Assembly: GCF_000633635.1 (NCBI RefSeq)
Contig: NZ_AYPQ01000006.1
Location: forward strand, 62,001-126,000
Length of the DNA: 64,000 nt
Direction of reading: 5' to 3'
Source: Enterococcus crotali
GTDB taxonomy: Bacteria; Bacillota; Bacilli; Lactobacillales; Enterococcaceae
Position numbers and translations under genes: made by a program. The notes beneath the pieces were generated by a model that worked only from the letters and a program-made list of their open reading frames with translations, was not told the origin of the DNA and searched no databases. How positions within the stretch are numbered: the stretch's first letter is position 1; each line of letters opens with the position of its first letter. Of the stretch, positions 5,541-58,241 are shown one piece after another.

Positions 5541-5782
5541 TTATACTATCTAACTTCAAGGGCTAGCCTTTCGGGAAAAAGATAAAATCCGATTGTGGTA
5601 AAAAACGCCACCCTCTGATTTTCCTATTTTCCTGTCAAGGCTGACCAAGCTCTTTCAGCTTTTATACTATCTAGCTTCAAGCGCTAGCCTTTCGGGAAAA
5701 AGATAAAATCTGATTGTGGCAAAAAACGCCACCCTCTGATTTTCCTATTTTCCTGTCAAGGCTGACCAAGCTCTTTCAGCTT
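5541..5782 (+). repeat. Tandem 121-bp palindromic repeat between fruK and fruA
   Basis: Two near-identical 121-base units (5541-5661 and 5662-5782). Each folds as nested stems: AGCCTT/AAGGCT, GGAAAA/TTTTCC, AAAATC/GATTTT, and an apical GTGGC (or GTGGT)-A-rich loop-GCCAC hairpin. The second copy ends in TTTCAGCTTTT and runs into the fruA Shine-Dalgarno (AGGAGG at 5791). A module just before it (about 5505-5540, AGGATTAACCGATTTG...) recurs before pucR. It belongs to the dispersed family also found at 12777, 18790, 24040, 25935, 27108 and, degenerate, at 30591 and 58165. Confidence 0.9.
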
Positions 5783-5803
5783 TTAAAATTAGGAGGAAAA
5801 ACA

Positions 5804-7726
5804 ATGAACATCAAAGACTTACTAGTCAAAGACGTGATGATTATGGATCTGCAAGCGACCGATAAAAAAGGTGCGATCGATGAAATGGTCCAAAAAATGT
5901 ACGATGGCGGTAGAATTTCTGATATCAATACTTACAAAGAAGGAATTTTAAACCGAGAAGCTCAAACTTCAACAGGTCTTGGCGATGGAATCGCCATGCC
6001 TCACGCCAAAAATAGTGCTGTCAAAGAAGCTACTGTCCTATTTGCCAAAAGCAATAAAGGTGTTGATTACGAAGCCTTAGATGGACAACCAACTTACTTA
6101 TTCTTTATGATTGCTGCTCCAGAGGGCGCTAATGACACTCATTTACAAGCATTGGCCGCCTTATCTAGATTGTTGATTGATCCTGATTTTGTCGCAAAAT
6201 TAAAAGAAACAAAAACGCCAGAAGAAGTTCAAAATCTATTTCAATCTGCCGAAGAAGCGAAAGAAGCCGAAGAAAAACAAGAACAAGTGGAAGAAGCCTC
6301 TAAAAACACTCAGGATACCAACCGTAAATTCGTCGTTGCTGTTACCGCTTGTCCTACTGGAATTGCCCATACATACATGGCTGAAGATGCCTTGAAGAAA
6401 AAAGCCAAAGAAATGGGTATCGAGATCAAAGTTGAAACAAATGGGTCTGAAGGAATTAAAAATCGTCTAACTGCTGAAGACATCGCTCGTGCAGATGGTG
6501 TCATTGTTGCAGCCGACAAAAAAGTAGAAATGAATCGCTTTGATGGCAAAGAATTAGTCAACCGTCCAGTTAGCGATGGGATTCGTAAAACAGAAGAATT
6601 AATCACACTGGCAACGAATGGTTCAGCACCGATCTTTCATAGTTCTGAATCAGATACAAGTGAAGAAGATAGTTCTGCCGATGGTTCTGTTGGTTCAAGA
6701 ATTTATAAAGACCTGATGAATGGCGTCTCTCACATGCTTCCTTTTGTTATTGGCGGCGGGATCGCAATCGCACTTTCATTTATGATCGATCAATTTATTG
6801 GTGTTCCTCAAGATCAGCTAAGTATGCTTGGTAATTATAATGAAGCAGCTTCTTGGTTCAATCAAATCGGTAGTGCAGCCTTTGGATTTATGTTACCTGT
6901 CTTAGCAGGATTTATTGCTTCAAGTATTGCTGATCGTCCTGGATTGATTGTAGGGTTCGCTGCTGGTGCGTTAGCGAATACCGGTGGGGCTGGGTTTTTA
7001 GGTGCTTTAGTAGGTGGTTTCCTTGCTGGATATGTTATTATTTTCTTGAAAAAACTTTTCAAAGGTTTGCCTAAATCACTTGATGGCATCAAAACAATTC
7101 TATTTTATCCAGTTTTTGGTTTACTGATTACTGGTGGATTAATGCTCTTAGTTAATATTCCAATGAAAGTTATCAATGATGGATTGAATGGTTTCTTACT
7201 AAGTTTAGATGGAACAAATGCCGCACTTTTAGGCGCTTTACTTGGCGGGATGATGGCGATCGACTTAGGTGGTCCGATCAACAAAGCAGCTTATGTATTC
7301 GGGACAGCTTCCATTGCTGCAACTGTTACAGAAGGCGGTAGTATCATTATGGCTTCTGTTATGGCAGGTGGTATGGTTCCTCCATTGGCTATTTTTATTG
7401 CAACGTTGATCTTCAAAAATAAATTTACGCAAGACCAAAAAGATGCTGGATTGACCAACTTAGTAATGGGTCTATCTTTTGTTACTGAAGGGGCGATTCC
7501 ATTTGCTGCAGCTGATCCGATACGAGTGATACCAAGCTTTGTTGTTGGTTCAGCATTAGCTGGTGGTTTAGTCGGTGGTTTTGGGATTCGCCTACTAGCT
7601 CCTCATGGCGGAATCTTTGTAGCATTATTGCTTAGTCACCCAATCTTATATTTGGTATTTATCGCAATCGGGGCAGTTATTTCTGCTTTGATTTTAGGAA
7701 TTGTAAAAAAACCAGTTACACAATAA
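5804..7726 (+). CDS. fruA: Fructose-specific PTS enzyme IIABC
   Basis: A 640-residue membrane permease that phosphorylates fructose to fructose 1-phosphate during uptake. Domain order: EIIA (1-150; phospho-His67 in GDGIAMPHAKN), an acidic linker, EIIB (about 174-275; phospho-Cys183 in TACPTGIAHT), and EIIC (about 300-640, ~8-10 hydrophobic segments). The frame is open upstream to 5714, but that part is repeat DNA. The ATG at 5804, eight bases after AGGAGG, is the natural start and matches EIIA alignments. Co-transcribed with fruR and fruK, with a strong terminator after it. Confidence 0.96.
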   Translation: MNIKDLLVKDVMIMDLQATDKKGAIDEMVQKMYDGGRISDINTYKEGILNREAQTSTGLGDGIAMPHAKNSAVKEATVLFAKSNKGVDYEALDGQPTYLFFMIAAPEGANDTHLQALAALSRLLIDPDFVAKLKETKTPEEVQNLFQSAEEAKEAEEKQEQVEEASKNTQDTNRKFVVAVTACPTGIAHTYMAEDALKKKAKEMGIEIKVETNGSEGIKNRLTAEDIARADGVIVAADKKVEMNRFDGKELVNRPVSDGIRKTEELITLATNGSAPIFHSSESDTSEEDSSADGSVGSRIYKDLMNGVSHMLPFVIGGGIAIALSFMIDQFIGVPQDQLSMLGNYNEAASWFNQIGSAAFGFMLPVLAGFIASSIADRPGLIVGFAAGALANTGGAGFLGALVGGFLAGYVIIFLKKLFKGLPKSLDGIKTILFYPVFGLLITGGLMLLVNIPMKVINDGLNGFLLSLDGTNAALLGALLGGMMAIDLGGPINKAAYVFGTASIAATVTEGGSIIMASVMAGGMVPPLAIFIATLIFKNKFTQDQKDAGLTNLVMGLSFVTEGAIPFAAADPIRVIPSFVVGSALAGGLVGGFGIRLLAPHGGIFVALLLSHPILYLVFIAIGAVISALILGIVKKPVTQ

Positions 7727-7737
7727 ATAACTTATTA

Positions 7738-7783
7738 AACCTCAACGAAAGAGAGTACGCTCTCTATTCCTTGAGGTTTTTTC
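7738..7783 (+). terminator. Rho-independent terminator of fruRKA
   Basis: CCTCAA...GAGAG-TACG-CTCTC...TTGAGG stem followed by TTTTTTC, directly after the fruA stop. Confidence 0.9.
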
Positions 7784-7933
7784 TTTGACACAAAATTTGG
7801 ATCGTTTACGTTTATATCATTCGCTTTAAAAAAAAATCTATATTAAACTATAATTGAGAAACATGCACTCTTTACGCATTAAATATTTCTTCACTAAAAC
7901 AATAATATCTTTAAGACTGATCAGAAAGGATGA

Positions 7934-7955
7934 CTATAATGATTTTTCATTATAG
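7934..7955 (+). promoter_or_regulatory. Hairpin over the start region of the SDR gene
   Basis: CTATAATGA-TTTT-TCATTATAG is a perfect 9-bp hairpin. CGGTTTTTT follows four bases before the SDR start codon. It covers the ATG of the small upstream ORF. As RNA it could act as an attenuator or hide the ribosome site. Confidence 0.5.
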
Positions 7956-7971
7956 CGGTTTTTTAATATGA
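7939..7971 (+). CDS. Possible 10-residue leader peptide overlapping the SDR start
   Basis: The ORF ATG ATT TTT CAT TAT AGC GGT TTT TTA ATA TGA encodes MIFHYSGFLI. An AGAAAGGAT ribosome site sits about eight bases upstream. Its TGA overlaps the ATG of the SDR gene (ATGA), and the SDR gene has no ribosome site of its own. This looks like translational coupling to a leader ORF. It is very short, so chance remains possible. Confidence 0.4.
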   Translation: MIFHYSGFLI

Positions 7972-8714
7972 ATAGATTATTAGGTAAAGTAATGTTGATT
8001 ACAGAATGCGACAGCAGTATTGGTGTAGCTACAGCCAAATTAGCTGCCAATGAAGGGGCTATTGTCGTTTGCACAGCTAAGAATATGGATAAGCTTTCTA
8101 CTGTTATTTCAGCTACCTCTCAGCTCAATGGTGTAGCTACAGCGTTTCAACACAACATAAGTAATGTCAAAAGTTGGCGGAAAGTCATTTCTAATACCAT
8201 AAAAAGTTATGGGAAAATCGATGTGTTAGTTAATAATGCGGGCATTGCTGCTCCAAAAATGATGTTAGATTTATTAGCTGAGGATTGGCAAAAAATTCAA
8301 AGTATCGATGTAAATAGTCTCGTGTTCAGTATCAAGGAAGTCATTCCCTTTATGATAAAAAATGGAGGCGGCTCGATCGTAAATGTTTCATCCCTGGAAG
8401 GATTGGTTGGTTTATCAGACAATAGTCCTTACACTGCAGCAAAGGATGTTATTCGCTCGGTCTCACTTGAAGCGGCTTTTGAATATGCTAAACATAATAT
8501 TCGTGTCAATTCAATCTGTCCTGGCACTATCGATACACCTATGATTGAGACCACTTTTCCAACTATCAAAGCAACTTATAAAAAATCGGTTCATTTTCCC
8601 TACTTAGGAAAACCTGATGATATCGCTAATGGAATTATTTATCTTGCTTGTGACGAAGCCAGTTTTGTAACTGGTGCAGAATTAGTGATTGATGGAGACA
8701 GAATTGCACTGTGA
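7968..8714 (+). CDS. Short-chain dehydrogenase/reductase, atypical cofactor motif
   Basis: A 248-residue classical SDR. It has the NNAG structural motif, a catalytic Ser in the VNVSSLEG strand, YTAAK (Tyr-x-x-x-Lys), and the PG(T)IDTPM segment after beta-6. The N-terminal glycine-rich dinucleotide loop, normally TGxxxGIG, reads TECDSSIG, so two of the three glycines are missing and cofactor binding may be altered. The substrate is unknown. There is no Shine-Dalgarno at its own start; translation probably depends on the leader ORF at 7939. It is flanked by terminators, so probably monocistronic. Confidence 0.8.
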   Translation: MNRLLGKVMLITECDSSIGVATAKLAANEGAIVVCTAKNMDKLSTVISATSQLNGVATAFQHNISNVKSWRKVISNTIKSYGKIDVLVNNAGIAAPKMMLDLLAEDWQKIQSIDVNSLVFSIKEVIPFMIKNGGGSIVNVSSLEGLVGLSDNSPYTAAKDVIRSVSLEAAFEYAKHNIRVNSICPGTIDTPMIETTFPTIKATYKKSVHFPYLGKPDDIANGIIYLACDEASFVTGAELVIDGDRIAL

Positions 8715-8794
8715 TCACACTCGTTTAGCTAAGTTTTTGTCACGCACTTTCAAAAAATAACAAAGTAGATAAACAAATAGAGGAATCATAAAGC

Positions 8795-8831
8795 TAAAAC
8801 AGGATTTGCACTCATTGCAAATCCTGTTTTA
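8795..8831. terminator. Bidirectional terminator, SDR / HxlR
   Basis: Perfect 16-bp stem TAAAACAGGATTTGCA / TGCAAATCCTGTTTTA with a five-base loop, between two convergent genes. A/U tracts lie on both sides. Confidence 0.9.
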
Positions 8832-8861
8832 ATGTCTAACAAACAATTATCTTTTACGACT

Positions 8862-9209
8862 TTAAAAATGGTGTTTATTCTCGTCATACCAATGATTAAA
8901 AACTTCGTATACTGGTAGAAGACTAGCTCCTAAATCGGTCAGTAGATATTCCACTCGAGGTATAATTTCAGGATATTCTATTCGAGAAATCAAACCGTCC
9001 TTCTCCAGATATTTTAATTGTGCGGACAATACTTTGTGACTAATTGCAGGAATTTTTTTCTTGAGCTGCCCATATCTAATATTTTGGTTTCCGCTTAAGT
9101 GATAAATAATTTGTATTTTCCACTTACCACTGATCATTGCTAAGACTTTTTCAAGGTCTGCGAAACCATGATCTTCTACTGTGCAGATATTCCCCTTCTC
9201 TAATTCCAA
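8862..9209 (-). CDS. HxlR-family transcriptional regulator
   Basis: A 115-residue winged-helix protein of the HxlR (DUF24) family. The signature GKWKIQIIYHL (about 30-40), the RYGQLKKKIPAISHKVLSAQL recognition region (about 46-66) and a wing (DGLISRIEY..PRVEY) are all present. A cysteine near residue 9 is at the position where YodB/HypR-type members sense thiol stress. It is divergent from the YrdB-like membrane gene across about 135 bases and is likely to regulate it. The effector is not evident. Confidence 0.92.
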   Translation of the reverse strand: MELEKGNICTVEDHGFADLEKVLAMISGKWKIQIIYHLSGNQNIRYGQLKKKIPAISHKVLSAQLKYLEKDGLISRIEYPEIIPRVEYLLTDLGASLLPVYEVFNHWYDENKHHF

Positions 9210-9344
9210 TTGATTACCTCCAGCCCCTACTTACTTTTTTGTGCGTAATTGTATGTATTTATCTACTATTATATACTGAAAACAGTGGCAAAGAGAGTAA
9301 TTATTAAAGATAAAATATTTATCATACTGAAAGAGGAGAACATA

Positions 9345-9686
9345 ATGAATTTAATTAAAAATAGTAATATCTTACTCGCTTTTTTGTTAGAGATATCAGC
9401 TATATTTATTTTGGGTTATTGGGGGATCAACCTACCGATTAAGAAAGCTATCTCTGTTACAATTGGCTTGTCGCTTCCTGTGTCAATAATTGTCATTTGG
9501 AGCATTTTTTGTGCTCCATCATCGAATTATCGATTAGAGGGGCTATGGCTTATTTTAGTAAAAAGCATAATTTATGCCATCGTGATTTATTGTTTATTCA
9601 GCATGGGTCATACTACTTCAACAATTATCTTTGGATTTTTTGTTCTGATCAACCTAGGACTCAGTATTTATTTTAAAACTCTGTAG
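9345..9686 (+). CDS. YrdB-like membrane protein (DUF2568 type)
   Basis: A 113-residue protein with four predicted membrane helices (about 6-26, 30-52, 66-86 and 90-110). The loop FCAPSSNYRLEG resembles the conserved loop of the YrdB/DUF2568 family, whose function is unknown. An upstream in-frame extension to 9249 is open, but the ATG at 9345 has AGAGGAG seven to eight bases upstream and gives the family length. Gene pairing with a divergent HxlR regulator suggests a small stress-responsive unit. Confidence 0.75.
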   Translation: MNLIKNSNILLAFLLEISAIFILGYWGINLPIKKAISVTIGLSLPVSIIVIWSIFCAPSSNYRLEGLWLILVKSIIYAIVIYCLFSMGHTTSTIIFGFFVLINLGLSIYFKTL

Positions 9687-9797
9687 TGTAGCTACTTTTG
9701 AACAAGTAATACGCATATTTTTAATAGATAATAAACACCCAATTTTCTCGAAGTTAGATGCTTTTGTCTTGACTTCCTTAGTCTTTTTTAAACATCA

Positions 9798-11129: not shown

Positions 11130-11235
11130 TTGCCTCACCTCATTCTTATAAGACAAGTATAGCGAAAAAAAAGAGAGACTTCATCTAATATACTTCTAAA
11201 ATCAAAGTTTAACTCTTCAAAACTTTTAAATAACT

Positions 11236-11293
11236 AAAAAATACTTTATCTCTTTCAATTAAAAAAAAGTTTGCAAGAGATAAAGTATTTTTT
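11236..11293. terminator. 19-bp perfect inverted repeat, bidirectional terminator
   Basis: AAAAAATACTTTATCTCTT (11236-11254) and its exact complement (11275-11293), with A/T runs at both ends. It lies between the allB terminator and the promoter region of the 443-residue gene. It would act as a second terminator for read-through from allB. Confidence 0.8.
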
Positions 11294-11321
11294 TCAAAGG
11301 TTTGAATTTCATCTATGGTAT

Positions 11322-11369: not shown

Positions 11370-11390
11370 TCTTAAACGCTGTTGACCTAT

Positions 11391-12758: not shown

Positions 12759-12776
12759 TTACTTTCCTCCTAATTT

Positions 12777-12912
12777 AAAAGTTGAGTGAGCTTGGTCAGC
12801 CCTGACAGGAAAATAGGCAAAAAAGACAGAGACATTTTTGGCCTCATTTATTTTTTACCTTTTCCAGCAAGGCTAGCTCTTGAAGCTAGATAACTTACGG
12901 TAACAACGTTCT
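12777..12912 (-). repeat. Palindromic repeat upstream of allB
   Basis: A member of the dispersed repeat family, in the orientation of allB. Minus-strand order: AACGTTGTTACCGTAAGTTATCTAGC, here broken as AACGTTGTTACC + GTAAGTTATCTAGC; then GCTAGC...GGAAAA; an apical GAGGC-CAAAAAT-GTCTC hairpin; TTTTCCTGTCAGGGCTGACC; and finally AACTTTTAAATTAGGAGG, which is the allB ribosome site. The apical stem differs from the GTGGC/GCCAC copies yet still pairs (one G-U). Confidence 0.85.
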
Positions 12913-12924
12913 ATTTTGCTAGAC

Positions 12925-14385
12925 CTATTTCTTATCAAAAAAATTTCTTAACACTAAATATAAAACAAAAGCAGATACAAAACCAGAAATCCAAGAAATA
13001 TCCGAAATCACTTTTAAAACAGGAATGAAATTCCCACTTAAACAAATAACTAATGCCACAACTGTAGCAACATACGCAGGTTTATTCAATCGTTTGTATA
13101 TATTATGACTATTGTCAGATTTTGGATCCATGTACAACTGATTCAAGTCGATCTTTTGTCTCTGAACAAAATAGTAATCAGCAATCATTGTTCCCGCAAC
13201 AGGTCCTAAGACTGCACCGATCGTATTCAAGAAAATAAAAATACTAGCTGCATTTTCCATTAATTTCCACGGCATGATCAGAAAACTAATCACGCTGGCA
13301 ATCAACACACCTTTTTTATAATCGATCTTTTTAGGAAATAATGCGCACAACTGATAAGCAGCGGGAATAATATTTCCCGTTGCATTTGTAGATACCGTTG
13401 TTAATAAGAATACTAGCATCGCAACAATAATCGCAAATGAATTGTCCCAACGATCCACAATATTTAAGATATTCCATTCCTGAATTCCGTAACGAATCGA
13501 GCCGCCAATCAAAATCACCACACTTGAAAAAGCAAAGATACCATAGCCAACTAAAAAGCTAGCTGTTTGACCAATCGTTTGATCTTTTGTTGATTTCGCA
13601 TTTTGAGTAAAATCTGAAACACTAGCTCCTGGTGCTGCCCAAACGGCTAAAACCGAATTGATGATCATCAAATAGACAAAAACTGGTGAAATATTGTGAG
13701 TTGCCCCTACAACATCATAGGATAAAATAGGTCCAAGACCACCAGCTGCATTAATCGCCCAAATTGCTATTCCGCCAAAAACGATATAAATCAGCGGACT
13801 CAAAATTGCTGTAAATTTATTTAAAATCTTACCTCCGCCGAAACCGATCAACACATTTACAACCCAAAATAACGTAAAAGAGATCAATCCGGGAACCGAA
13901 ATTCCCAAGATCATCCTATCCCCACCTAAAACTAAAAAGTCAGGCCAAATTTTGCCAATCAAAATCAAAAGCGCAAGGGAACCTGTATAATTTTGTAATC
14001 CAAACCAAGCAATCGCCGCAACACACCCTCTGAGAAACCCTGGTAGTTTTGCACCGATATCGCCATAAGTTGAACGTAAGTGAATAGCAAAAGGAATACC
14101 ATATTTTGAGCCTGCCCGACCATTAAAGGTCATAAATAAAGCGACTGCCATTGCACTGATCACTAAAGCCAACATAATATTGATTGGTGATAATCCTAAA
14201 AATAAAAATCCTCCAACAGCGGTATAGTTAGGGATATTATGTACTGAACCCATCCACAATGTAAAGTAGTTCATCTTGCCCATCATCCTTTTGGACAACG
14301 GTTTCGGTAACAGATCTTCATTGTATCCTCGCTCTCGATAACGTTGAAGTTCTTCTTCCGTGATTTGATAATCATGGTTTCCCAT
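12925..14385 (-). CDS. pucI: NCS1-family allantoin permease
   Basis: A 486-residue nucleobase:cation symporter-1 protein with about 12 membrane helices. The family signature after helix 1 (LWMGSVHNIPNYTAVGG) and the helix 3 region (GIPFAIHLRSTYG) are present. Genomic position next to allantoinase makes allantoin the likely substrate, as for PucI/AllP. The start was moved to 14385, where AGGAGG sits eight bases upstream; the longer ORF to 14442 lacks one. Other hydantoins or purines remain possible substrates. Confidence 0.9.
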   Translation of the reverse strand: MGNHDYQITEEELQRYRERGYNEDLLPKPLSKRMMGKMNYFTLWMGSVHNIPNYTAVGGFLFLGLSPINIMLALVISAMAVALFMTFNGRAGSKYGIPFAIHLRSTYGDIGAKLPGFLRGCVAAIAWFGLQNYTGSLALLILIGKIWPDFLVLGGDRMILGISVPGLISFTLFWVVNVLIGFGGGKILNKFTAILSPLIYIVFGGIAIWAINAAGGLGPILSYDVVGATHNISPVFVYLMIINSVLAVWAAPGASVSDFTQNAKSTKDQTIGQTASFLVGYGIFAFSSVVILIGGSIRYGIQEWNILNIVDRWDNSFAIIVAMLVFLLTTVSTNATGNIIPAAYQLCALFPKKIDYKKGVLIASVISFLIMPWKLMENAASIFIFLNTIGAVLGPVAGTMIADYYFVQRQKIDLNQLYMDPKSDNSHNIYKRLNKPAYVATVVALVICLSGNFIPVLKVISDISWISGFVSAFVLYLVLRNFFDKK

Positions 14386-18538: not shown

Positions 18539-18789
18539 AACGATTCCCTCTTTTCCGTTTTAATTTCATCCTACCCTTATCTCCGAAAAAGTCATTGTCA
18601 CTTTTGAATAAAAAATTAAAATTTTCAGTTATTATATACAAACCTTTCTTGAATCTGCATACGCTATCATTTAGAATAGAGATATATACAGAAATCTAAC
18701 AAGGTGATCTATTAATATTGATCGCTCTCATATCTGCTCCTCGTCTAGAAAGAGTTGGTTTAATATGACGGAGCTACTCATTCATACAA

Positions 18790-19181
18790 TGATCATCCAG
18801 CTTTTCGGAAAAAGAGGATGTCGACTGTGGCAAAAAAAACGCCACCCTCATCTTTTCCTATTTTCCTGTCAAGGCTGAACGAGCTCATTGTGCTTTTGCT
18901 TTAAAACACAGGGAACGAAGTGAACTGATGTTGAAAAGTACAAGGTGAAGCAAAGCGGAACGTTGTTACCGCAAGTTATCTAGCTTCATGAGCTAACCTT
19001 TCGGGAAAAAGATAAAAGAAGATTGTGGCAAAAAACGCCACCCTCATCTTTTCCTATTTTCCTGTCAAGGCTGAACGAACTCATTGTGCTTTTGCTTTAA
19101 AACACAGAGAACGAAGTGAACTGATGTTGAAAAGTACAAGGTGAAGCAAAGCGGAACGTTGTTACCGCAAGTTATCTAGCT
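18790..19181 (+). repeat. Tandem ~196-bp palindromic repeat upstream of pucR
   Basis: Two copies offset by 196 bases (for example GCCACCCTCATC at 18841 and 19037). The shared core is TGTGGC-A-rich loop-GCCACC, then TTTTCCTATTTTCCTGTC AAGGCTGAAC. This is followed by a ~100-base arm found only here in full (AACGAAGTGAACTGATG...GTACAAGGTGAAGC...ACGTTGTTACCGCAAGTTATCTAGCT). The second copy is followed by the 19190-19236 module (AGGATTAACCGATTTGTTCC), also seen before fruA, and then by the pucR ribosome site. The rest of this >300-base gap (18539-18790) holds the pucG promoter region; no clear boxes were assigned. Confidence 0.9.
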
Positions 19182-19251
19182 GTACAAATCAATCCTAATT
19201 TTCTCTAGGATTAACCGATTTGTTCCGCTTTTAATATTAGGAGGAAATCCA

Positions 19252-24024: not shown

Positions 24025-24039
24025 TTTGATTTTCCTCCG

Positions 24040-24155
24040 TTAAAAGCTGAATGAGCTGGATCAGCTCCCACTGGAAATAGGAAAAATAGAATGTGGTGCT
24101 TTTTACCACAAACTATTTTCATCTATGTTCTGAGGAGTTAGCTCAGTAAGCTGGA
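24040..24155 (-). repeat. Palindromic repeat between fdrA and allG
   Basis: Same orientation as allG. The apical hairpin reads TGTGGT-AAAAAGC-ACCACA, a compensated version of the GTGGC/GCCAC stem at fruA. The outer arms GAGCTAACTCC and GGGAGCTGATCC flank it. The element ends ATTCAGCTTTTAACGGAGG, which forms the allG ribosome site. Confidence 0.85.
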
Positions 24156-24159
24156 TAAT

Positions 24160-25917: not shown

Positions 25918-25934
25918 TGAAATTCCTCCGTTTG

Positions 25935-26035
25935 TTTAAAAGTGTAGCGGGCTCGTTCAGCTCCGACAGAAAAAATTGATGCGATCGAAGCAGAGCGTAG
26001 TGCTAGCCCGCGTAGCTAGATAATTTATTTTACAG
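25935..26035 (-). repeat. Short palindromic repeat upstream of fdrA
   Basis: A shortened family member in the orientation of fdrA. It keeps the outer arms (TATCTAGCTACGCGGGCTAGC and GAGCTGAACGAGCCCGC) and the TTTTAAAC...CGGAGG end. It lacks the apical A-loop hairpin and has an unrelated middle (ACTACGCTCTGCTTCGATCG). Confidence 0.75.
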
Positions 26036-26039: not shown

Positions 26040-27089
26040 TTATTCTGCAAACTTATTTTTGTGATCATAACGATCATAATGAATATCGTCACTTACTAAA
26101 TATTCGTAGATATCATCTACGATTTCAATTCCATTTTCTTCATAATTTTTTTCACGTGCGCGTCCTCGTTCACCAGGATAATTAACCTCAGTAAAACCAG
26201 GACTCGGGCTGATTTCTTTTAGTTCATCCAACATTGTTGAGATGTTCTTTTTAAATACTTCTAAACCAATGAAGAAATCTGGATTGATCACAATATGAAG
26301 CTGACCTAATTCGCGGCCTTTAGATAAATCATGATACATGGAAGACACGTGTTTGCCAAATGGCACGCCTAATAAAATACCAGATAAAATATCCACCATC
26401 ATCATTAAGCCATAGCCTTTAGGTCCAGCAATCGGCAACAATGCATTTACTGCTGTTGAATCAGTTGTCGGGTTTCCTTTGGCATCTACCGCCCATGAAT
26501 CTGGTATGGCTTCTTTTTTAGAACGAGCATGAAGAATCTTGCCCCACGCCTGAACCGTTGTCGCCATATCAAACGTAATCACACGATCGTCATTACTAGG
26601 TGCCGCAAAGGCAATTGGATTTGTACCAAAATAAGGTTCGCTTCCTCCAAATGGTACAACCATTGGATCAGATTGGCAAACAGAAAGTGCTACCATATCT
26701 TGTTCTGCAGCTCTTTCTACATAATAAGCAAGCGCTCCGCTATGAGAGATATTACGGACTCCAACAACAGCGACACCGTTTTTCTTAGCCATTTCAATGG
26801 CTAAATCCATGGCTTTTTCTGCTGCAACAAAACCAGAACCATTATCGCCTTCAAACATACCACAGCTAGGAGCTGTTTGTTCAAAAGAAAAAGTAGGATC
26901 GTTCGTGATACCGCCTTTTACTATTCTTTCTGAATAATATTCTACACGCATTGCACCGTGAGAATGAATTCCCCTAGCATCTGCAAAAGTTAAAACATCA
27001 CTTACGATTCCTGCATGTTCCTCCGACAAACCAGCTTTTTGTATCTTATCTTTGATCAGTTGATGTAAATCCGCTTTTTTTACTCTCAT
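26040..27089 (-). CDS. allD: Ureidoglycolate dehydrogenase, paralogue 1
   Basis: A 349-residue NAD(P)-dependent dehydrogenase of the LDH2/malate-lactate (YlbC/AllD) family that oxidises ureidoglycolate to oxalurate. Family blocks: ARGIHSHGAMRVEYY (about 34-48; conserved His), ISHSGALAYYVE (about 114-125; catalytic His), MVVPFGGSEPYFGTNPIAFAAP, with P and N positions that contact the cofactor, and GPKGYGLMMMVDILSG. It differs from its downstream-strand neighbour (27308-28375) in about one third of residues by eye. A repeat supplies the region before its AGGAGG. Confidence 0.9.
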   Translation of the reverse strand: MRVKKADLHQLIKDKIQKAGLSEEHAGIVSDVLTFADARGIHSHGAMRVEYYSERIVKGGITNDPTFSFEQTAPSCGMFEGDNGSGFVAAEKAMDLAIEMAKKNGVAVVGVRNISHSGALAYYVERAAEQDMVALSVCQSDPMVVPFGGSEPYFGTNPIAFAAPSNDDRVITFDMATTVQAWGKILHARSKKEAIPDSWAVDAKGNPTTDSTAVNALLPIAGPKGYGLMMMVDILSGILLGVPFGKHVSSMYHDLSKGRELGQLHIVINPDFFIGLEVFKKNISTMLDELKEISPSPGFTEVNYPGERGRAREKNYEENGIEIVDDIYEYLVSDDIHYDRYDHKNKFAE

Positions 27090-27107
27090 TTAAAACGCCT
27101 CCTTATT

Positions 27108-27222
27108 TTAAAGCGAAGCGGGCTCTTTCAGCTTCGACAGAAAAATAGGAAAAATTGACTGAGGTGCTTTTTGCCTCATTCAATTTTTATCTTTTTTCCG
27201 AGAAGCTAGCCCGCGTAGCTAA
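27108..27222 (-). repeat. Palindromic repeat between the two allD genes
   Basis: Orientation as paralogue 1. Outer arms GCGGGCTAGCTTC / GAAGCTGAAAGAGCCCGC pair well. Inner stems GGAAAA/TTTTTCC and AAATTGA/TCAATTT follow. The apical hairpin is TGAGG-CAAAAAGCA-CCTCA, another compensated version. The end TTTAAAATAAGGAGG is the ribosome site. Confidence 0.88.
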
Positions 27223-27307
27223 ATACCATACGACAACAATTCTCCGCTTCGCTAATACTTATACGAACTAAACAACATTTTCATGAAGCATCATAGTTCA
27301 AAAAATT

Positions 27308-28375
27308 TTATTTTTTCTCACCAAAAGCATTTGTATTTTCATAGCGATCATAATGAAGTGTATCGCTCTTTAAATAATCATAAATATCTTTTACGATATC
27401 AATACCCTCTGCCATTGATTTTTCATAGTTGATTTGATTGATTTCACCAGGATAATAGACTTGCTCGAATCCGTCTGCTGCCGGAATCTCATGTAGCTCT
27501 TCTACCATACCGTTCACTGATTCTTTGAACATCTCTAAATCTGTGAAACGTTTTGGATCGATCAAAATATACATTTGACCAACATTACGCCCTTTACTTA
27601 TATCGTCATACATAGAAGAAACGTGTTTCCCAAATGGTAAACCTAACAGCATGCCAGATAAGATGTCTACCATCATCATCAAGCCGTAGCCTTTTGGTCC
27701 AGCAATTGGTAATAAGCCGTTGACTTTATGAGGATCAGTTGTTGGTTTTCCATCTTTATCAACTGCCCATGTATCTGGAATATCTTTATTTTTTGAACGA
27801 GCATCTAAGACTTTGCCCCAAGCTTGAACCGTAGTTGCCATATCGAAAACAACAGGTTCATGACCTTTTCTTGGTGCCGCAAAGGCAATTGGATTTGTAC
27901 CGAAATAATTTTCTTTCCCACCAAATGGCACAACCATCGGATCTGATTGACACATTGCAATTGCAATCAAATCTTGTTGAGCCGCTTTTTTCACATAGTA
28001 AGATAACGCGCCACTGTGGCTGATTTTTGAGATGCCAACAGCCGCCACTCCAGATTTTTTCGCCATATCGATCGCATAACCAAGACCAACATCTGCAACG
28101 AATTGTCCTGCGCCATTTTTACCGTGAACGATTCCTGAACTTGGTCCAGTCTCTTCAAATTCAATGTTTGGATCAAGCGTTACGCCGCCTTTATCGATTT
28201 GTTCTGCATAATATTCTACTCTAACGGCTCCATGTGAGTGGATACCGCATGCATCCGCAAATACCAAATGTGTCGCCACTTCATCTGCATGCTCTGGTTT
28301 TAAACCAGCTGTCGTTAATTTTTTTTCGATCAAATCATGCAATTCTTCTGGTTTCACTACAACAGTTTCATTCAT
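27308..28375 (-). CDS. allD: Ureidoglycolate dehydrogenase, paralogue 2
   Basis: A 355-residue AllD/LDH2-family enzyme with the same landmarks as paralogue 1: CGIHSHGAVRVEYY, KISHSGALSYYVKK, MVVPFGGKENYFGTNPIAFAAP and GPKGYGLMMMVDILSG. It directly follows allE with a 20-base gap and is the copy in the canonical allC-allE-allD order. Paralogue 1 may be a later duplicate with shifted cofactor or substrate preference. GAGGAAG lies nine bases upstream of the ATG. Known AllD enzymes are cytoplasmic and NAD-dependent. Confidence 0.92.
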   Translation of the reverse strand: MNETVVVKPEELHDLIEKKLTTAGLKPEHADEVATHLVFADACGIHSHGAVRVEYYAEQIDKGGVTLDPNIEFEETGPSSGIVHGKNGAGQFVADVGLGYAIDMAKKSGVAAVGISKISHSGALSYYVKKAAQQDLIAIAMCQSDPMVVPFGGKENYFGTNPIAFAAPRKGHEPVVFDMATTVQAWGKVLDARSKNKDIPDTWAVDKDGKPTTDPHKVNGLLPIAGPKGYGLMMMVDILSGMLLGLPFGKHVSSMYDDISKGRNVGQMYILIDPKRFTDLEMFKESVNGMVEELHEIPAADGFEQVYYPGEINQINYEKSMAEGIDIVKDIYDYLKSDTLHYDRYENTNAFGEKK

Positions 28376-30476: not shown

Positions 30477-30590
30477 CGTTTTCATACACTATCCACATTT
30501 CACAAATTAACTCCTATCTTTGTGCGCATTAAACATAAAGACTGTAGCTATTTGGGTTAAAATAGAAATAAGTTAGTGAAATTTTCTGGA

Positions 30591-30633
30591 TTCATGGGCT
30601 AATTTTCGGAAAAATGGTAGAATGCAAATAAGC
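30591..30633 (+). repeat. Decayed copy of the palindromic repeat, allC / hydrolase gap
   Basis: TTCATGGGCTAATTTTCGG AAAAATGG... matches TTCATGAGCTAACCTTTCGG AAAAAGAT of the pucR copy, then breaks off. About 140 bases on, GTACAAGGTGCACGATGTTACC (30773-30794) resembles another module of that copy, just before the hydrolase ribosome site. The remainder of this 390-base gap is AT-rich promoter DNA in which I assign nothing else. Confidence 0.45.
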
Positions 30634-30817
30634 TCAACAATATCTCAGTCTTTTTTTCTATTGAAAGTACGTTATCTTATTATGCTCTAGTTTTGAGACA
30701 TGCCAAGAAATACAATGAATTTATGAGTTGATATTGATCACTCATGCGATTACTCGTTGCACGAAAACACTTGGTACAAGGTGCACGATGTTACCTATAA
30801 TTCAAGGAGGACTATTA

Positions 30818-45476: not shown

Positions 45477-45774
45477 CAAAAAAATCCCTAGAAAAGTCAA
45501 AGACTCTTCTAAGGATGTAATAAACATACATGGTACCACCTTAATTCACAAAAATCATAGGATTTTTGCCTCTACTCTAATACGCCGCCACTGCTTGATA
45601 TTAGGATTCTTGCTAACGGGAATAACCGTGCACCTCTAAAATAATCTCTCGAAATGCCCACTCAAAAGCCATTTTCAAATTCGTTTTCTTCCGCCTCTTT
45701 TCAGCTACCAAGGCTCTCTTTTAGAAATTCCACAGAATTTTACTTTCTTTTTCTACGTGTTTTTTTATTTATTT
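45477..45774 (-). promoter_or_regulatory. T-box leader, methionine specifier
   Basis: Minus-strand leader RNA of ~300 nt. Stem I carries GGTAGCTGAAAAGAGGC, and a specifier loop reads AAAATGGC followed by TTTTGAGTGG; ATG suggests tRNA-Met sensing. The T-box AAGGTGGTACC (near 45535-45545) is followed by a terminator, TCCTTAGAAGAGTC / GACTTTTCTAGGGA then TTTTTTT, ending near 45477. Uncharged tRNA-Met would favour the antiterminator and switch on the metE-like-luxS-metQ-mtnN operon. Confidence 0.93.
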
Positions 45775-50014: not shown

Positions 50015-50034
50015 TTTTTCCACTCCCTTATCTA

Positions 50035-52982: not shown

Positions 52983-53059
52983 GATCGTCACGCTCCTCTA
53001 CTCTTTTAACAAGTAGTCAATTGATTCAACTGATTACTTATTCTGCTAACAAATACAAT

Positions 53060-53088
53060 TGTAAGCGTATTATCAGGTTTCTACTATA
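53060..53088 (-). promoter_or_regulatory. Promoter with cre-like site for the rhamnoside operon
   Basis: Minus-strand -10 TATAGT (53083-53088). Just downstream is ATACGCTTACAATTG (about 53056-53070), the same TGTAAGCG core as at 17220 and 30463. A cre at the start point would block initiation when CcpA is active. Confidence 0.5.
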
Positions 53089-53124
53089 GCGAAATCACAC
53101 ACATTTCTTTGCCAAATCACAGAT

Positions 53125-53156
53125 AAAAAAACCTCTAACAATTGTTAGAAGTTCCT
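53125..53156 (-). terminator. Terminator downstream of the AraC-family gene
   Basis: AACTTCTAACAATTGTTAGAGGTT self-pairs (minus strand) and is followed by TTTTT; quoted halves are AACTTCTAAC and GTTAGAGGTT. Confidence 0.85.
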
Positions 53157-53176
53157 TTTCAACTAATTCAATTTTT

Positions 53177-54151
53177 TTACTTATTCAATAGGCTTTTTAC
53201 TGTTTTCGGGGTTTGATCGGTATACTTACTAAATAGTTTATACAAAGAAGGTACCGAGTCAAAGCCTATATCATGAGCGATTTCTTCTAAATTCTTATCC
53301 GTTTCTCTCAGTAGATCTAAGGCCGTTTGGTAACGCATATTATTGATCAACTTTTGGAAAGAGTAGCCTGTTTCCTTTTTTAGTTTATTACTCATATAAT
53401 TAGAGTTGTAGCCAAAGAACTTCGCTAGATCTGATAAGGTTAATGCTGTAAAATGACTTTCAATATAACGAAGGATCGTTAAAATTTCTTCATCTTGCTC
53501 TTGAGAATTTTCTAGACTATCTGCTTCGATCACCCGCGTCAGCTCGATCATAAGTAAAGACAATAGCAAATTAATTGAACGCATATAATAATTCTCTTTT
53601 TGATAATATTCGAGAATCATTTTTTGAACGATCTCTTGTACCTCTTTTTTCTGACCAGATCGAAAATAAATAAAGGCATTATGATCGCTATAATCATTAG
53701 AAGCGCTTAGTAGAAATTCATTCACTAGACCATTCGATTTCACCATGTTGACGATAATTCCTGTTGTGATTGAATCTCCTTTTAATAAAATGTTGATCAA
53801 AATATCGTCTTTACCCAACGGTTCGATTCGTTGGACGATATCTTTATCCATCAAAAGAATTTCGCCTTCTTGCAAATCAATACGTTGTTCATTGACATAC
53901 TGGACACAGTGACCTGAAAGCATATAATTAAATTCAACAAATTCATGAGTATGAGCAGGCATTTCAGAGTAACGATGATGCTTATTGATAAAGATATTGC
54001 CATCTGTAAAAAAATTAGCTTCCGGCATTTTAGGTATCGCCATTTCTTCAAAAGGCAGATGCTGATCATTGACATTATGTCCTTCAAGGCGCTGTTCTTG
54101 CTCGATTTTATTTTCCTGCCATAGTTTGATTTTTAACTCTTCAAAATTCAT
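53177..54151 (-). CDS. AraC-family regulator with cupin sensor domain
   Basis: A 324-residue regulator. The N-terminal cupin (MPAHTHEFVEFNYMLSG, about 61-77) should bind a sugar. The C-terminal double HTH spans about 225-322: LSDLAKFFGYNSNYMSNKLKKETG and LEEIAHDIGFDSVPSLYKLFSKYT. It lies upstream of the MFS-GH78-GPH genes on the same strand, behind a terminator, and is the likely activator. The start at 54151 lies inside the end of the GNAT gene (11-base overlap), so the two are translationally coupled; the ribosome site is weak. Confidence 0.9.
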   Translation of the reverse strand: MNFEELKIKLWQENKIEQEQRLEGHNVNDQHLPFEEMAIPKMPEANFFTDGNIFINKHHRYSEMPAHTHEFVEFNYMLSGHCVQYVNEQRIDLQEGEILLMDKDIVQRIEPLGKDDILINILLKGDSITTGIIVNMVKSNGLVNEFLLSASNDYSDHNAFIYFRSGQKKEVQEIVQKMILEYYQKENYYMRSINLLLSLLMIELTRVIEADSLENSQEQDEEILTILRYIESHFTALTLSDLAKFFGYNSNYMSNKLKKETGYSFQKLINNMRYQTALDLLRETDKNLEEIAHDIGFDSVPSLYKLFSKYTDQTPKTVKSLLNK

Positions 54152-54575
54152 TGTTTGTCTTCTCTCTATTATCATGATCAAGTTTTTTTACCATCATTAT
54201 TTCATAAGGCTCATTTGTTGGGAAAAATCCCCCTACTGTTTTAAACCCTAATTTAAGATATAAGTGTTGCGAATACTCTTCACTGGAAGTTGATAGCATA
54301 AGTTCTTTAAACCCCTGAATGATCATTTCATGTTCAAAAAAATGCATTAAATCTGTCCCATATTGTTTACGTCTGAAAGGTTCCAAGATAAACAACATAT
54401 CCACAAATGGAATAGAGTCCCAAAAGAAACTAAACCTAAGCCAACCAATCATTTCATTTTCTTCAATAATCAGAATTCTATTTTCCTCAATGGCTGAGCG
54501 AAGTCTTTCTTGAGGGATGTGAGTATCATGTATCGCTAACAAATCTAGATCCATTAATGTTGCAACTCGTATCAT
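54141..54575 (-). CDS. GNAT-family N-acetyltransferase
   Basis: A 144-residue acetyltransferase. The acetyl-CoA motif A region is FILEPFRRKQYGTDLMHFFE (R/Q-x-x-G/A pattern, about 62-81), and YLKLGFKTVGGFF (about 110-122) is motif B. The acceptor substrate is unknown. The ATG at 54575 is preferred: GAAGG lies nine bases upstream, and the protein then begins with the usual first beta strand (IRVATLMDLD). Overlaps the AraC gene, a pairing that may be fortuitous. Confidence 0.82.
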   Translation of the reverse strand: MIRVATLMDLDLLAIHDTHIPQERLRSAIEENRILIIEENEMIGWLRFSFFWDSIPFVDMLFILEPFRRKQYGTDLMHFFEHEMIIQGFKELMLSTSSEEYSQHLYLKLGFKTVGGFFPTNEPYEIMMVKKLDHDNREKTNNEF

Positions 54576-54665
54576 CCGTGATAACCTTCTTTCATACCGT
54601 TTTATAGATTGATTATACAATAAAAAGTATGTTTTATTTCTTAATTATTCACACTTACAAAATAA

Positions 54666-54756
54666 TGAGGCTGAGACATAACTCTACGAGTCACATCTCA
54701 GCCTCAAGGTATCCGGATAAATCGTGGGAGCAGAAGTAACACTTGTCCCAACCTCA
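54666..54756. repeat. Two-hairpin palindromic repeat
   Basis: TGAGGCTGAGA / TCTCAGCCTCA forms an 11-bp hairpin (54666-54706). A second hairpin follows: GGGA..AAGT-AAC-ACTT..TCCC (54726-54749). The outer TGAGG and the terminal CCTCA (54752-54756) can also pair. The design recalls the two-stem EFAR palindromic repeats of E. faecalis. It lies between two minus-strand genes and could terminate transcription from the DUF1002 gene. Confidence 0.75.
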
Positions 54757-54772
54757 TCAAGCTTTACTTATT

Positions 54773-55729
54773 CTATTTTCCAGTAACAGAATCCCAAAGT
54801 CCACTAAAGAAACCTTTAATATTCTCCCAAAGTCCTTTAGATTTCTCTTGAATTTGCTCTTTCGTTTTAGACAAATCTAGTTGATTCACAAAGTCTTCAA
54901 AAATATTTTTATCTTTCATATCACTCATCAATGTCGTTAATTCTTTCACCTGATCTGTTGACATCACATCTTTGATCCCTTGACTTTGTAAGGCACTTTC
55001 AACGGTTTGTTGAATATCTTCTTGGGTTAACTTCTTCCCATCAGCCGTTTTTACAGCGAGTTCTTTTTTCGCTTGTTCTTGTGCTGCATTCAAGGCTTCG
55101 TCGGAATAGCCTTCTTTGTCTTTGTTTTCTTCTGTGATCTTAGATAGTACATCCATTTCGTCCTGTGCTACACCGACACGATCACGATTGATGATTCCGC
55201 CAGATTCTTCGACGATTTTATAAACACCTGCTAAAGCACCAGAACCATCGATTGGTACGGCTGATGCCACAGTTAGTTTGGCATCAGTGATCCCAGCAGT
55301 CAAAGCTGCATTTTGGTACTGAGCTTCAGTGATTTTCGTGATATTTTTAGGTGTGGCAATATCTACAGAGATTCCTGCCCCTTTTTTCTGAGTTTCCATT
55401 CGAACAGAGCTGTAAACAGCCCATTCTGGCGTGAAACCACCGTCAGGGATAAAACTCATAAGGTCTTTTCCTGTTGTTGTATATTGAGGTGTTTCCCCTT
55501 TGATGCCTAGTTCTTTTAAGGTAAAATCCTTTTGCTCCTGAGTCAGTGCATTGCCTAGAGCAACTGCGTTGATTTGTAGGTTTTGTTCAGCGCTGCTACT
55601 TGTCTCTGTATTCGTTGAGCTGGTTGCTGTGCTTTGTTCTGTCGCAAATACTGTTGCTCCACTATATATACTTGTTGAAATCAAAAGTAAGCTCATCGCT
55701 ACTGCTAGTTTTTTTTGTTTATGTTTCAT
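54773..55729 (-). CDS. Secreted DUF1002 protein
   Basis: A 318-residue exported protein. Signal peptide about 1-30 (MKHKQKKLAVAMSLLLISTS...ATVFA), then a Ser/Thr-rich stretch (31-50). The DUF1002 core has ALTQEQKDFTLKELGI, then YSSVRMETQKKGAGISVDI (about 105-123) and AALTAGITDAKLTVASAVP (about 140-158), then GSGALAGVYK. An acidic helical tail ends it. YpuA-like proteins have no known biochemical role. No LPXTG or lipobox, so it is presumably released or wall-associated. Stands alone. AGGAGG is close to the start. Confidence 0.9.
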   Translation of the reverse strand: MKHKQKKLAVAMSLLLISTSIYSGATVFATEQSTATSSTNTETSSSAEQNLQINAVALGNALTQEQKDFTLKELGIKGETPQYTTTGKDLMSFIPDGGFTPEWAVYSSVRMETQKKGAGISVDIATPKNITKITEAQYQNAALTAGITDAKLTVASAVPIDGSGALAGVYKIVEESGGIINRDRVGVAQDEMDVLSKITEENKDKEGYSDEALNAAQEQAKKELAVKTADGKKLTQEDIQQTVESALQSQGIKDVMSTDQVKELTTLMSDMKDKNIFEDFVNQLDLSKTKEQIQEKSKGLWENIKGFFSGLWDSVTGK

Positions 55730-55845
55730 AAAAATCCTCCTAAAATAACTTCTATTTGTTTCATACTATACAACACTTTTTTTAGTTATTCCTTAAGGAC
55801 GATCCCGTTTTAATAAATTTTTACCCTATTTTAACTTCTGCACCC

Positions 55846-56819
55846 TCATTGATCTAAATATTTAGGGTAAAATAATTCTCGTTGTTTTCTAAGTCGATAT
55901 TGAATTTGCTGAATAAAACGATTTGGAGCCGTTACTTTTAAAAAGGGACCAAACGACATTACTTGAATCAACAACTCTGTTTCATCTTGCGCCAAATAAA
56001 AAATAGTCAGCTGATACATCGCTTCACCTTCTAATTTTTGGGTAACTTTTCGGTAGTTTGAAAAGTGAAATATTGCCCTTTCTAGTGTATCGCGTTCGTC
56101 TTTCAATAAACATGTGATTGATTTTTCAGTTGTACGTTGCAAGTTTTCATTTTCAAAATGTTGCGCTAATAAACGAACCGCTTGTATTTCAGATACATTC
56201 AATAGACAATTTTCCCAATTACCTCTTCTTGTTTGGCGTTTTGCTTTTAAGCGAAATTTATTATTTTTATGTGAGTACTCAATTTTATCTGGTTTTATTT
56301 TATGGGTAATGATCGTTTGATTTTCTAACCCTTGGTAATCTATTTCAAGATACAGCCGCTTTTGAATACCTTCGACCAATAAGTGAATATTTCGTTGATA
56401 CTCAGTATCCTGAAAGCGATCATCTGTTTGAAATTGATCGTAATAAACTGTATCTTCTGGTCCAAATAAAACGGAAACCTCCTGCAATTGATTCAATAGA
56501 TGCAACTGCTCAGCTTCAGTTAAAAATAAGGAAATTTTTTCATCTTGCAGAATTGTTTTTAACCATTGTTTTTCCAGTAGAGTCACTGGACGTTGTGGCA
56601 ATTGGCGTAAAATAGACTGATAATCTTGAGCGTCTGGTTTAACTAAATGCCACGCATCTTCCTCATTAAAAAAAGCATCTGAAAAGTGAAAGGCGTCTCA
56701 CCATACCCATTCTCCTCAATCATTTGTTGAATCTCATTTTTATTCAATGGTAATTGTCGCAGGATTTTTTCTGCAATCGCAAAGTATTGTCCATAAATTT
56801 CGTGGAATAGAGGCATCAT
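55846..56819 (-). CDS. WYL-type regulatory protein 2, frameshifted as given
   Basis: The start (56819/56816, after GGAGG) reads MMPLFHEIYGQYFAIAEKIL...ENGYGETPF and then goes out of phase. One extra T at 56684-56687 restores HFSDAFFNEEDAWHLVKPD..., joining the open frame that runs to 55846 (about 324 residues in all). The repaired protein has a helical N-terminus and a WYL-like beta domain (IHLLVEGIQKRLYLEIDYQG, HKIKPDKIEYSHKNNKFRLKA). A typical WYL C-terminal extension follows. It partners WYL-type protein 1 and is divergent from hen1, so it probably senses a ligand controlling RNA repair. Confidence 0.8.
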
Positions 56820-58050
56820 CTTTCCTCCCCCTCTTCAAAGTATAGAGAGCACATTTTTGATAATCTTCCCAAAAATGTTTTTCCCACAGACGATTCGTAC
56901 ATTGAATTTTCTCGATACGTCCAAAAAAGGTTCTTAGAAATGGTGTAATAGCTACCATATCAGCCAATTTTATTTGAAAAAGATAGCGATTTTTTTCTAA
57001 TCTTATAATATCCCCTTGCCGTTTTTCTTTTTCCAAGCGCCGAATCAAATACATTTCCTGCTCTTCATCGATCAAAAAGAAGACTTTTAATTCTTGCGTT
57101 GGTCGATTGGCGATAGCGGCGTTCCACACCATTTCTTTTTGCTTTAAAAGTTGTTCTTGGTACTTAAGAGTTTGGGGATTTACAGCTTTTAGTTTTACAT
57201 GACTGATTGTGTGTAACCGTATCGAATATAAGCGTTTTTTGCCTTTCAACTTACCGACAAGGTGTTGACGACCAGACTCACAGCTACTATATATTTTTAG
57301 AGGTAGAAACTGTACCTCCTGTTGTTTGTACGTTTGAAAACACACTTCTCGTTGTTGGTGAATTGCTTGTAACAATAACAAGGTAACCTCAGCATCAAAT
57401 GTCTGATGAAAAAATGTATGCTTAAAAACATAAGGAGACGCTTGAATCTTTGGCTCACGAGCTAAAAGATGCTCCCCGATAATTCCAACAGGGAAAACTT
57501 CTTTATAAAATTGAATTGCTTGAATGACGTTTTCAGACAAAAGCATTCTTGGTTGCTGCTGATAGTAGAGTGTTTTCCCTTGCTTGCTTTCTTGTAAAAT
57601 ACCTAGTGAAACATACTCTTTCACTTTTTTTCTAATGGTCAAAGAATCTAGCATATAATCATCTTGAAAAACACTCAAATAATCCTTGTCAATAAGCTCA
57701 ACTAATTCAGTAATCGTACATTTTTTCTGATCTGTAAAAATATCCAACAAAACAAAGTGCAGAAAAATATCATTTTTTGTAAACGACTTACTCTTCCATA
57801 GCCGCTGAAATGGATTTTCACTTCTTCGATGACCGTCAATCGAAAGGCGTAGTGTCTTTTTCCCTTGATTATAGTCTGTCTCAATAAACTCTGAAAAAAG
57901 ACTTTCAATTCTTCGGCGTTCATTATCATAGCTTCGTGTACTCCCATATGTAAATTCTTCTCGATCTTTAAAACCATAAATATAAAAATCTCTTGCGTAT
58001 CTACGCAGTATTTCACTATTTTTTACTAATTCCTGAAACTTCTTTGCCAT
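56740..58050 (-). CDS. WYL-type transcriptional regulator 1
   Basis: A 436-residue ORF as given. The N-terminal part is a DNA-binding region (DNERRRIESLFSEFI; SLTIRKKVKEYVSLGILQE). Residues about 200-300 form a WYL-like domain (VCFQTYKQQEVQFLPLKIYSS, LVGKLKGKKRLYSIRLHTI). The C-terminal extension ends near KCALYTLKRG. The last ~30 residues overlap the next gene by 80 bases and look spurious. One more G in the G5 run near 56829 would end the protein at a TGA overlapping the next start. GGAGAG precedes the ATG. Divergent from hen1-pnkp, likely its regulator. Confidence 0.82.
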   Translation of the reverse strand: MAKKFQELVKNSEILRRYARDFYIYGFKDREEFTYGSTRSYDNERRRIESLFSEFIETDYNQGKKTLRLSIDGHRRSENPFQRLWKSKSFTKNDIFLHFVLLDIFTDQKKCTITELVELIDKDYLSVFQDDYMLDSLTIRKKVKEYVSLGILQESKQGKTLYYQQQPRMLLSENVIQAIQFYKEVFPVGIIGEHLLAREPKIQASPYVFKHTFFHQTFDAEVTLLLLQAIHQQREVCFQTYKQQEVQFLPLKIYSSCESGRQHLVGKLKGKKRLYSIRLHTISHVKLKAVNPQTLKYQEQLLKQKEMVWNAAIANRPTQELKVFFLIDEEQEMYLIRRLEKEKRQGDIIRLEKNRYLFQIKLADMVAITPFLRTFFGRIEKIQCTNRLWEKHFWEDYQKCALYTLKRGRKDDASIPRNLWTILCDCRKNPATITIE

Positions 58051-58164
58051 ATACTCTCCTTTTTCTCCCTTTTATCTTATTTAATCAAAGGAAAGCATTC
58101 TGCGCAACTTTTCTTAAAAGATAAGTCCACGATTATCTATTATGATGAAAACAACTTAAATATC

Positions 58165-58225
58165 TCTCGTTTCATGAGCTAGTCTCTTGAGAAAAAGATA
58201 GAATAAGCTCATTACATTTTTACTT
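58165..58225 (+). repeat. Truncated palindromic repeat upstream of hen1
   Basis: TCATGAGCTAGTCTCTTGAG AAAAAGATAGAAT matches the left arm of the repeat family, but the apical hairpin is missing. It then passes via AAGCTCATTAC to TTTTTACTTCTAGGAGG, the hen1 ribosome site. The same orientation and position as the intact copies. Confidence 0.6.
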
Positions 58226-58241
58226 CTAGGAGGAAGTTAGC

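Follow-up and report, generated by a model that had tools for sequence, protein, structure and literature searches.

A palindromic repeat that ends at Shine-Dalgarno sites in Enterococcus crotali, and its possible nature as mobile DNA

Does a palindromic repeat that runs into the ribosome site of one gene after another serve those genes as a messenger RNA (mRNA) leader, or is it DNA that moved there? The question is raised by a dispersed element at seven loci in a stretch of 64,000 nt from Enterococcus crotali (NCBI RefSeq assembly GCF_000633635.1, contig NZ_AYPQ01000006.1, positions 62,001 to 126,000 of the forward strand), which we call the window. We regard the element, with about even confidence, as non-autonomous, EFAR-like palindromic mobile DNA that would act as a bottom-strand hairpin and that in this lineage lies 5′ of TTA/GGAGG. 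The initial annotation had proposed mobile or formerly mobile modular palindromes at ribosome sites, and filled and empty alleles, shuffled arms and placement at Shine-Dalgarno sequences (SDs) bear this out.

We trained a covariance model, R1, on 25 copies from the E. crotali genome (3.9 Mb, 20 contigs). Among the best 150 of 3522 candidates scored, at least 139 matches in this genome have an E-value of 0.01 or better. The 139 matches listed form 85 clusters, none of mixed strand, and tandem copies stand head-to-tail with up to six per row. The element is about 119 bp long and has the ends TTA/TCTAGC...GCTTTTAAAATTA; its right end lies mostly at TTA/GGAGG, the SD of a gene that runs in the same direction.

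To score this placement, we counted a cluster as SD-linked if an SD and a same-strand open reading frame (ORF) of at least 50 codons followed no more than 12 nt past its end. Of 85 clusters, 84 were readable (one on contig C10 was left out), and 64 of these are SD-linked in gene orientation. For 54 of the 64, the SD begins 4 or 5 nt beyond the model end. Of 40,000 intergenic points with strands drawn at random, 1.95% pass a nearly identical rule, and against this chance rate the binomial p is about 3e-91. The inverted arrangement, in which an opposite-strand SD would adjoin the left end, occurs in none of the 84 readable clusters. Random placement or orientation and non-compensatory stems, which the initial annotation had named as counter-evidence, were not found in the E. 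crotali genome. Among 393 element-free ORFs of the same stretches (starts chosen roughly), 111 have GGAGG, 12 of them with TTA directly in front. The genes downstream of the element are functionally unrelated: tsf, nfo, ddl, trpB, recG, serS, fabD, lgt, dapA and queG are found there, as are genes for the ATPase of a betaine-type ABC transporter and for a dihydrolipoyl dehydrogenase and, within the window, the allantoin genes (identities from 23 scanned downstream proteins, three of which were scanned twice, out of those at the 64 clusters).

The consensus folds into one long hairpin with interruptions; of its 31 pairs, 18 show two-sided changes among the 25 copies. Compensatory change had been described for the apical stem; it is real, yet it extends well past that stem. 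In 234 copies, the five outer pairs match in full in 139 and carry two or more mismatches in only 28, whereas shuffled arms would be expected to carry two or more in about 163.

G-U pairs are the signature of an RNA helix, and we used them, set against A-C, as a strand test. A length filter and then a motif filter for well-formed copies, which removed 59 of 296 distinct rows, left 237 copies. In the pairs predicted by RNAalifold on the gene strand, these copies hold 116 G-U versus 166 A-C cells, and parsimony gives 102 G-U versus 118 A-C events. The 16 pairs common to the structures of both strands hold 89 G-U versus 146 A-C cells, and alignments fitted to models give 121 versus 147 (A2) and 63 versus 127 (A3). 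As a control, T-box leaders from this genus went through an equivalent count (30 leaders with loci, 19 predicted pairs); they show 28 G-U versus 0 A-C, and on the wrong strand 0 G-U and 17 A-C. The opposite strand of the element has the lower minimum free energy in 204 of the 237 copies. It does so too in genomes of two other genera, G093 (31 of 37 copies) and G065 (46 of 47), where the gene-type strand shows G-U versus A-C counts of 18 versus 26 and 12 versus 37, respectively. Counts for the opposite strand are inflated because their pairs were picked on that strand, and we therefore base the strand argument on the gene strand, where G-U is not favoured. With A-C at least as frequent as G-U on the transcript strand, unlike the 28 to 0 of the T-boxes, the covarying stem loses the weight it had been given as an argument for a portable mRNA leader. 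The covariation gives no support for leader function, which we consider unlikely.

IS200/IS605 elements and REP sequences with their RAYT transposases rely on a strand-specific hairpin, insert in fixed orientation at a short target and leave no target duplication. The element shares the preferential folding of one strand and, as far as the E. crotali genome is concerned, the fixed orientation and the missing target duplication: across 49 arrays, the left flank resembles the right one no more than in permuted pairs. A target-site duplication hinted at by the ddl locus was thus not borne out. Together, fixed orientation, exact spacing, the lack of target duplication and the preferred opposite strand suggest a strand-specific reaction on single-stranded DNA of the IS200/IS605 kind. 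In its working form, the bottom strand would be folded as single-stranded DNA. Insertion would take place beside CCTCC-TAA, which is TTA-GGAGG read on the other strand, and leave no target duplication, and a strand-specific reaction alone would yield fixed orientation, exact spacing and tandem arrays. The arms would later be shuffled and re-matched via recombination and hairpin template switching, and the element would be carried in 5′ untranslated regions (UTRs) as largely tolerated freight, any effects on expression being secondary. More tentatively, the signal for translation initiation may itself be the homing target of the palindrome; the bottom-strand hairpin would insert beside CCTCC, the complement of the SD, growth at the SD-proximal end would produce polar arrays, and the RNA-like covariation would be made at the DNA level.

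The arms of the element vary as a unit. Among 219 pairs of copies that are at least 95% identical over the middle 60 columns, 73 differ by at least three two-sided, still-paired changes in the outer stem. The remaining pairs differ by one-sided changes only (68) or by one or two two-sided changes (49), or have an identical outer stem (29); the 219 pairs share copies and are not independent. Half-and-half copies, which combine two different, individually common arms, make up 8 of 234. This pattern would fit recombination followed by arm-to-arm correction, and selection on a DNA hairpin would fit too. Template switching can create and maintain hairpins, according to the excerpted text of PMC8794818. 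Loop inversions were considered as a signature of template switching and rejected; the opposite-orientation loops are antisense-strand hits or doubtful hairpin picks. In genome G060, the apical hairpins of two copies (L277 and L306) are mutually inverted by eye, a possible template-switch footprint. In 23 of 34 arrays, the copy farthest from the gene has the lower score (p 0.03), which fits growth at the SD end and also fits distal decay; tandem copies with equal bit scores are present as well.

Orthologous loci exist in filled and empty forms. At tsf, 17 loci were searched with R1, and 16 of them have between one and four copies; the 17th retains a remnant, and the five remaining genomes of the 22 are empty by eye. 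R1 copies are present at 11 of the 12 ddl loci searched, and in 10 of the 22 genomes we see by eye no element directly before the ddl SD. In the main subclade, the ddl SD and the bases that follow it are much alike in filled and empty alleles; the linker differs. By eye, nfo is empty in G010 and five outlying species, and G006 and G008 bear a different module at the SD. In the outlying species G005, a related element ending GCTTTTCTTA lies (by eye) upstream of the ddl promoter-like stretch rather than at the SD (L251).

R1 matches occur in all 22 genomes of the genus that were searched, with 3 to at least 150 per genome and at least 2,028 in total; two of the genomes contribute at least 150 each. 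At the level of the family, 49 of 105 genomes have matches (E 1e-5), and at the level of the order 73 of 295 sampled genomes (E 1e-8). Among named genomes, a strict core pattern is found in Enterococcus moraviensis, caccae, ureasiticus, quebecensis, termitis and others, and once in Isobaculum melis, which falls outside Enterococcaceae. The I. melis copy (L069:2966-3130) is near-consensus, scores 131 bits and ends at the SD of a gene, which suggests horizontal transfer. A distant BLASTN search with one copy against plasmids and phages gave no match, so at that sensitivity known mobile replicons give no sign of carrying copies. A contig from a viral collection (L308, L309) was not used as evidence for mobility. 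Its R1 scores equal those of the E. crotali region C2:617-619 kb, and it is therefore probably the chromosome or a prophage of the same species.

To compare placement outside the genus, we fetched 20 stretches from each of the genomes G093 and G065. Clusters lie at SDs in 0 of 23 cases (G093) and 1 of 20 (G065); 12 of the 23 and 13 of the 20 have the following ORF on their own strand. Of the 43 right ends, 11 fall −2 to 4 nt from the end of an opposing ORF (unfiltered ORFs of at least 80 codons). Since these clusters are hardly ever at SDs, SD placement does not define the wider element; it looks like a trait of one lineage within a wider family of palindromes. The relatives mostly end GCTTTTC or GCTTTTT, not GCTTTTAAAATTA.

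Several observations weigh against mobile DNA that works as a bottom-strand hairpin. Twenty of the 84 readable clusters are not SD-linked. By eye, about eight of these are ribosome sites where the SD is weaker, the ORF is short or a partial element intervenes; we still scored them as misses. At least three clusters lie away from any SD, with both flanking ORFs on the opposite strand. A search for the Y1 transposase (PF01797), the one transposase family searched for, gave no match in the E. crotali genome; the gene is absent from nine other genomes of the genus too, several of them copy-rich, and 12 of the 22 have one. Without a gene in E. crotali, this enzyme is rejected as the present driver, and because it is missing here and in the nine others, the single-strand chemistry is a step that we infer. 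At ddl, the linker AAAAATTA is found by eye in 11 of 12 filled alleles and in none of 10 empty ones, and AAAATTTA in the twelfth filled allele (G011) and in three of the ten empty ones. This distribution is better explained by a single old insertion that was later lost in places than by repeated fresh hits, and suggests that ddl has such a history. Parsimony events in the 16 shared pairs number 75 G-U versus 103 A-C, a modest asymmetry that weighs against the gene strand more firmly than it speaks for the opposite one. Finally, apical loops are A-rich on the gene strand in 296 of the 314 loops detected in 402 rows (copies from three genomes plus the named genomes), a strand-specific constraint that the bottom-strand hairpin leaves unexplained.

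The A-rich loop would be at home in a functional 5′ leader, an alternative that we consider unlikely but place first among the rivals. The transcribed hairpin would stabilise the mRNA, cause attenuation, bind a protein or help the ribosome, and the SD placement would reflect selection. Strict placement and orientation speak for such a role, but the transcript strand is without the preference for G-U over A-C expected of a structured cis-regulatory RNA. Housekeeping genes bear the element (tsf, ddl, nfo, serS, recG, fabD, trpB, lgt and dapA), and at ddl it follows, by eye, a conserved promoter-like stretch and precedes the SD; yet its presence is patchy for one and the same gene across species, as the empty ddl alleles illustrate, and the relatives in the two other-genus genomes are hardly ever at SDs. 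At gathering score, Rfam matches only a T-box elsewhere in the window, and the element is without a match.

Next, and also improbable in our estimate, comes copying by homology from a founder at one SD. Later copies would have arisen by template switching or gene conversion, the shared AAAATTAGGAGG would have served as right-hand homology, and no SD-directed enzyme would exist. The right junction does lie inside an SD context common to many genes, and the orientation would follow automatically; left-hand homology beyond TTA is not evident, however, and the left ends are recognisable, a TTA/TCTAGC-like end being found together with the SD in 49 of 87 arrays. By eye, 13 of 18 opuAA orthologues have the linker AAAATAA/GGAGG in common and differ in their hairpin arms, which suits this explanation, as do the off-SD relatives with their GCTTTTC or GCTTTTT ends, expected if the SD type had a single origin. 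That the folded strand acts as RNA, in a transcript antisense to the gene, is very doubtful: the opposite strand folds better and shows G-U versus A-C ratios of 87 versus 19 (G093) and 127 versus 13 (G065), but these are inflated by the choice of pairs on that strand, and the copies are spread over many unrelated operons.

Returning to mobile DNA, we compared the element with known repeats. By eye, the uS2 sequences of the 22 genomes of the genus all differ from PDB chain 7nhk_c, which we take to be E. faecalis uS2, and none of these genomes was recognised as E. faecalis. EFAR (Efa-1) is, like the element, a dispersed palindromic repeat of enterococcal intergenic space, and membership in EFAR is likely, judged by host and kind rather than by sequence. 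In the excerpted text of PMC3733652, enterococcal palindromic repeats are classed among miniature inverted-repeat transposable elements, and that of PMC2267715 lists Efa-1 in class I with the entries 163 and 65(18), taken here as length, members and intergenic members. The latter excerpt gives Efa-1 as a prediction of two adjacent stem-loops, whereas the element is one long hairpin, and SD placement is mentioned in neither excerpt. The BOX, RUP and SPRITE repeats of pneumococcus, compared by description only, are interspersed and modular, with tandem modules that vary in number; they are read as parasitic and are transcribed beside genes in several cases, and an SD-exact placement in one orientation is not described in the excerpted PMC3049150. 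REPs are regarded as possible miniature elements tied to RAYTs (PMC3733652, excerpt). Compared with the REP and IS200/IS605 systems, the element has a much longer hairpin, an SD-linked site and no Y1 (HUH) transposase gene in the E. crotali genome.

Within the window, the copies listed by the initial annotation are real: R1 recovers eight full or short copies, and the truncated hen1 copy, absent from the R1 matches, is known from reading the sequence (Table 1). At all seven loci the element is oriented like the downstream gene, as had been stated. That the copies run into AGGAGG is correct for most loci; the allG and fdrA SDs read CGGAGG, and the two pucR copies stop short of the SD, with one more module and a short hairpin of another type, which ends GCTTTTAATATTAGGAGG, in between. 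The hen1 identity is based on Pfam Hen1_N, the NCBIfam score being below cut-off. The weak match at 30582 is included in the 139 matches and was scored as a miss within the 84 clusters. The accessory module of AAGTACAAGGTGAAGCAAAGCGGAACGTTGTTACC type recurs to the left of the element, in the window also at 12894-12947 and beyond it at several clusters elsewhere in the genome.

Table 1. Copies of the element and associated features in the window
Feature	Position	Strand	Evidence
Half copy of pucR short hairpin module	5507-5543		direct repeat
Element copy 1, fructose phosphotransferase system (PTS) gene (fruA in the initial annotation)	5546..5664	+	R1 132.4 bits
Element copy 2, enters SD of fructose PTS gene	5667..5785	+	R1 139.2 bits; sequence
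AGGAGG, fructose PTS gene, start 5804	5791..5796	+	sequence; fructose PTS IIA/IIB/IIC family matches
AGGAGG of allB, start 12758	12766..12771	-	sequence; AllB family match
Element copy, allB	12776..12893	-	R1 99.8 bits
Degenerate element copy, pucR	18782..18898	+	R1 56.5 bits
Element copy, pucR	18976..19094	+	R1 131.7 bits
Accessory module, AAGTACAAGGTGAAGCAAAGCGGAACGTTGTTACC type	19095..19181, again 18899-18975	+	direct repeat; sequence
Short alternative hairpin module ending GCTTTTAA at pucR SD	19182..19235	+	sequence
AGGAGG of pucR, start 19252	19239..19244	+	sequence; PucR family match
Element copy, allG; SD CGGAGG 24034-24039	24041..24158	-	R1 96.2 bits; sequence; AllG match
Short element variant, fdrA; SD CGGAGG 25925-25930	25937..26023	-	R1 41.6 bits; sequence; FdrA match
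Element copy, allD; SD AGGAGG 27098-27103	27108..27226	-	R1 129.4 bits; sequence; AllD match
Weak doubtful match, perhaps decayed copy	30582..30690	+	27.6 bits, E 0.003
Truncated element without apical part, hen1; SD AGGAGG 58228-58233	58161..58222 (about)	+	direct repeat; sequence; Hen1_N

The window also contains two tandem allD-like genes (26040-28375; DNA 72-74% identical over aligned blocks), a CRISPR-like array (1307-1884; nine repeats, spacing 65-68 nt) and a T-box leader on the minus strand (45508-45764, 116.9 bits).

For RNA discovery the element carries a warning: a textbook covarying hairpin in 5′ UTRs fails the G-U versus A-C strand test, which is cheap and general, and covariation alone is therefore no proof of RNA function. 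If our reading is true, the element would be a mobile element addressed to a translation start signal, and the 5′ UTRs of dozens of unrelated genes, those of housekeeping genes included, would have been rebuilt in a lineage-specific manner.

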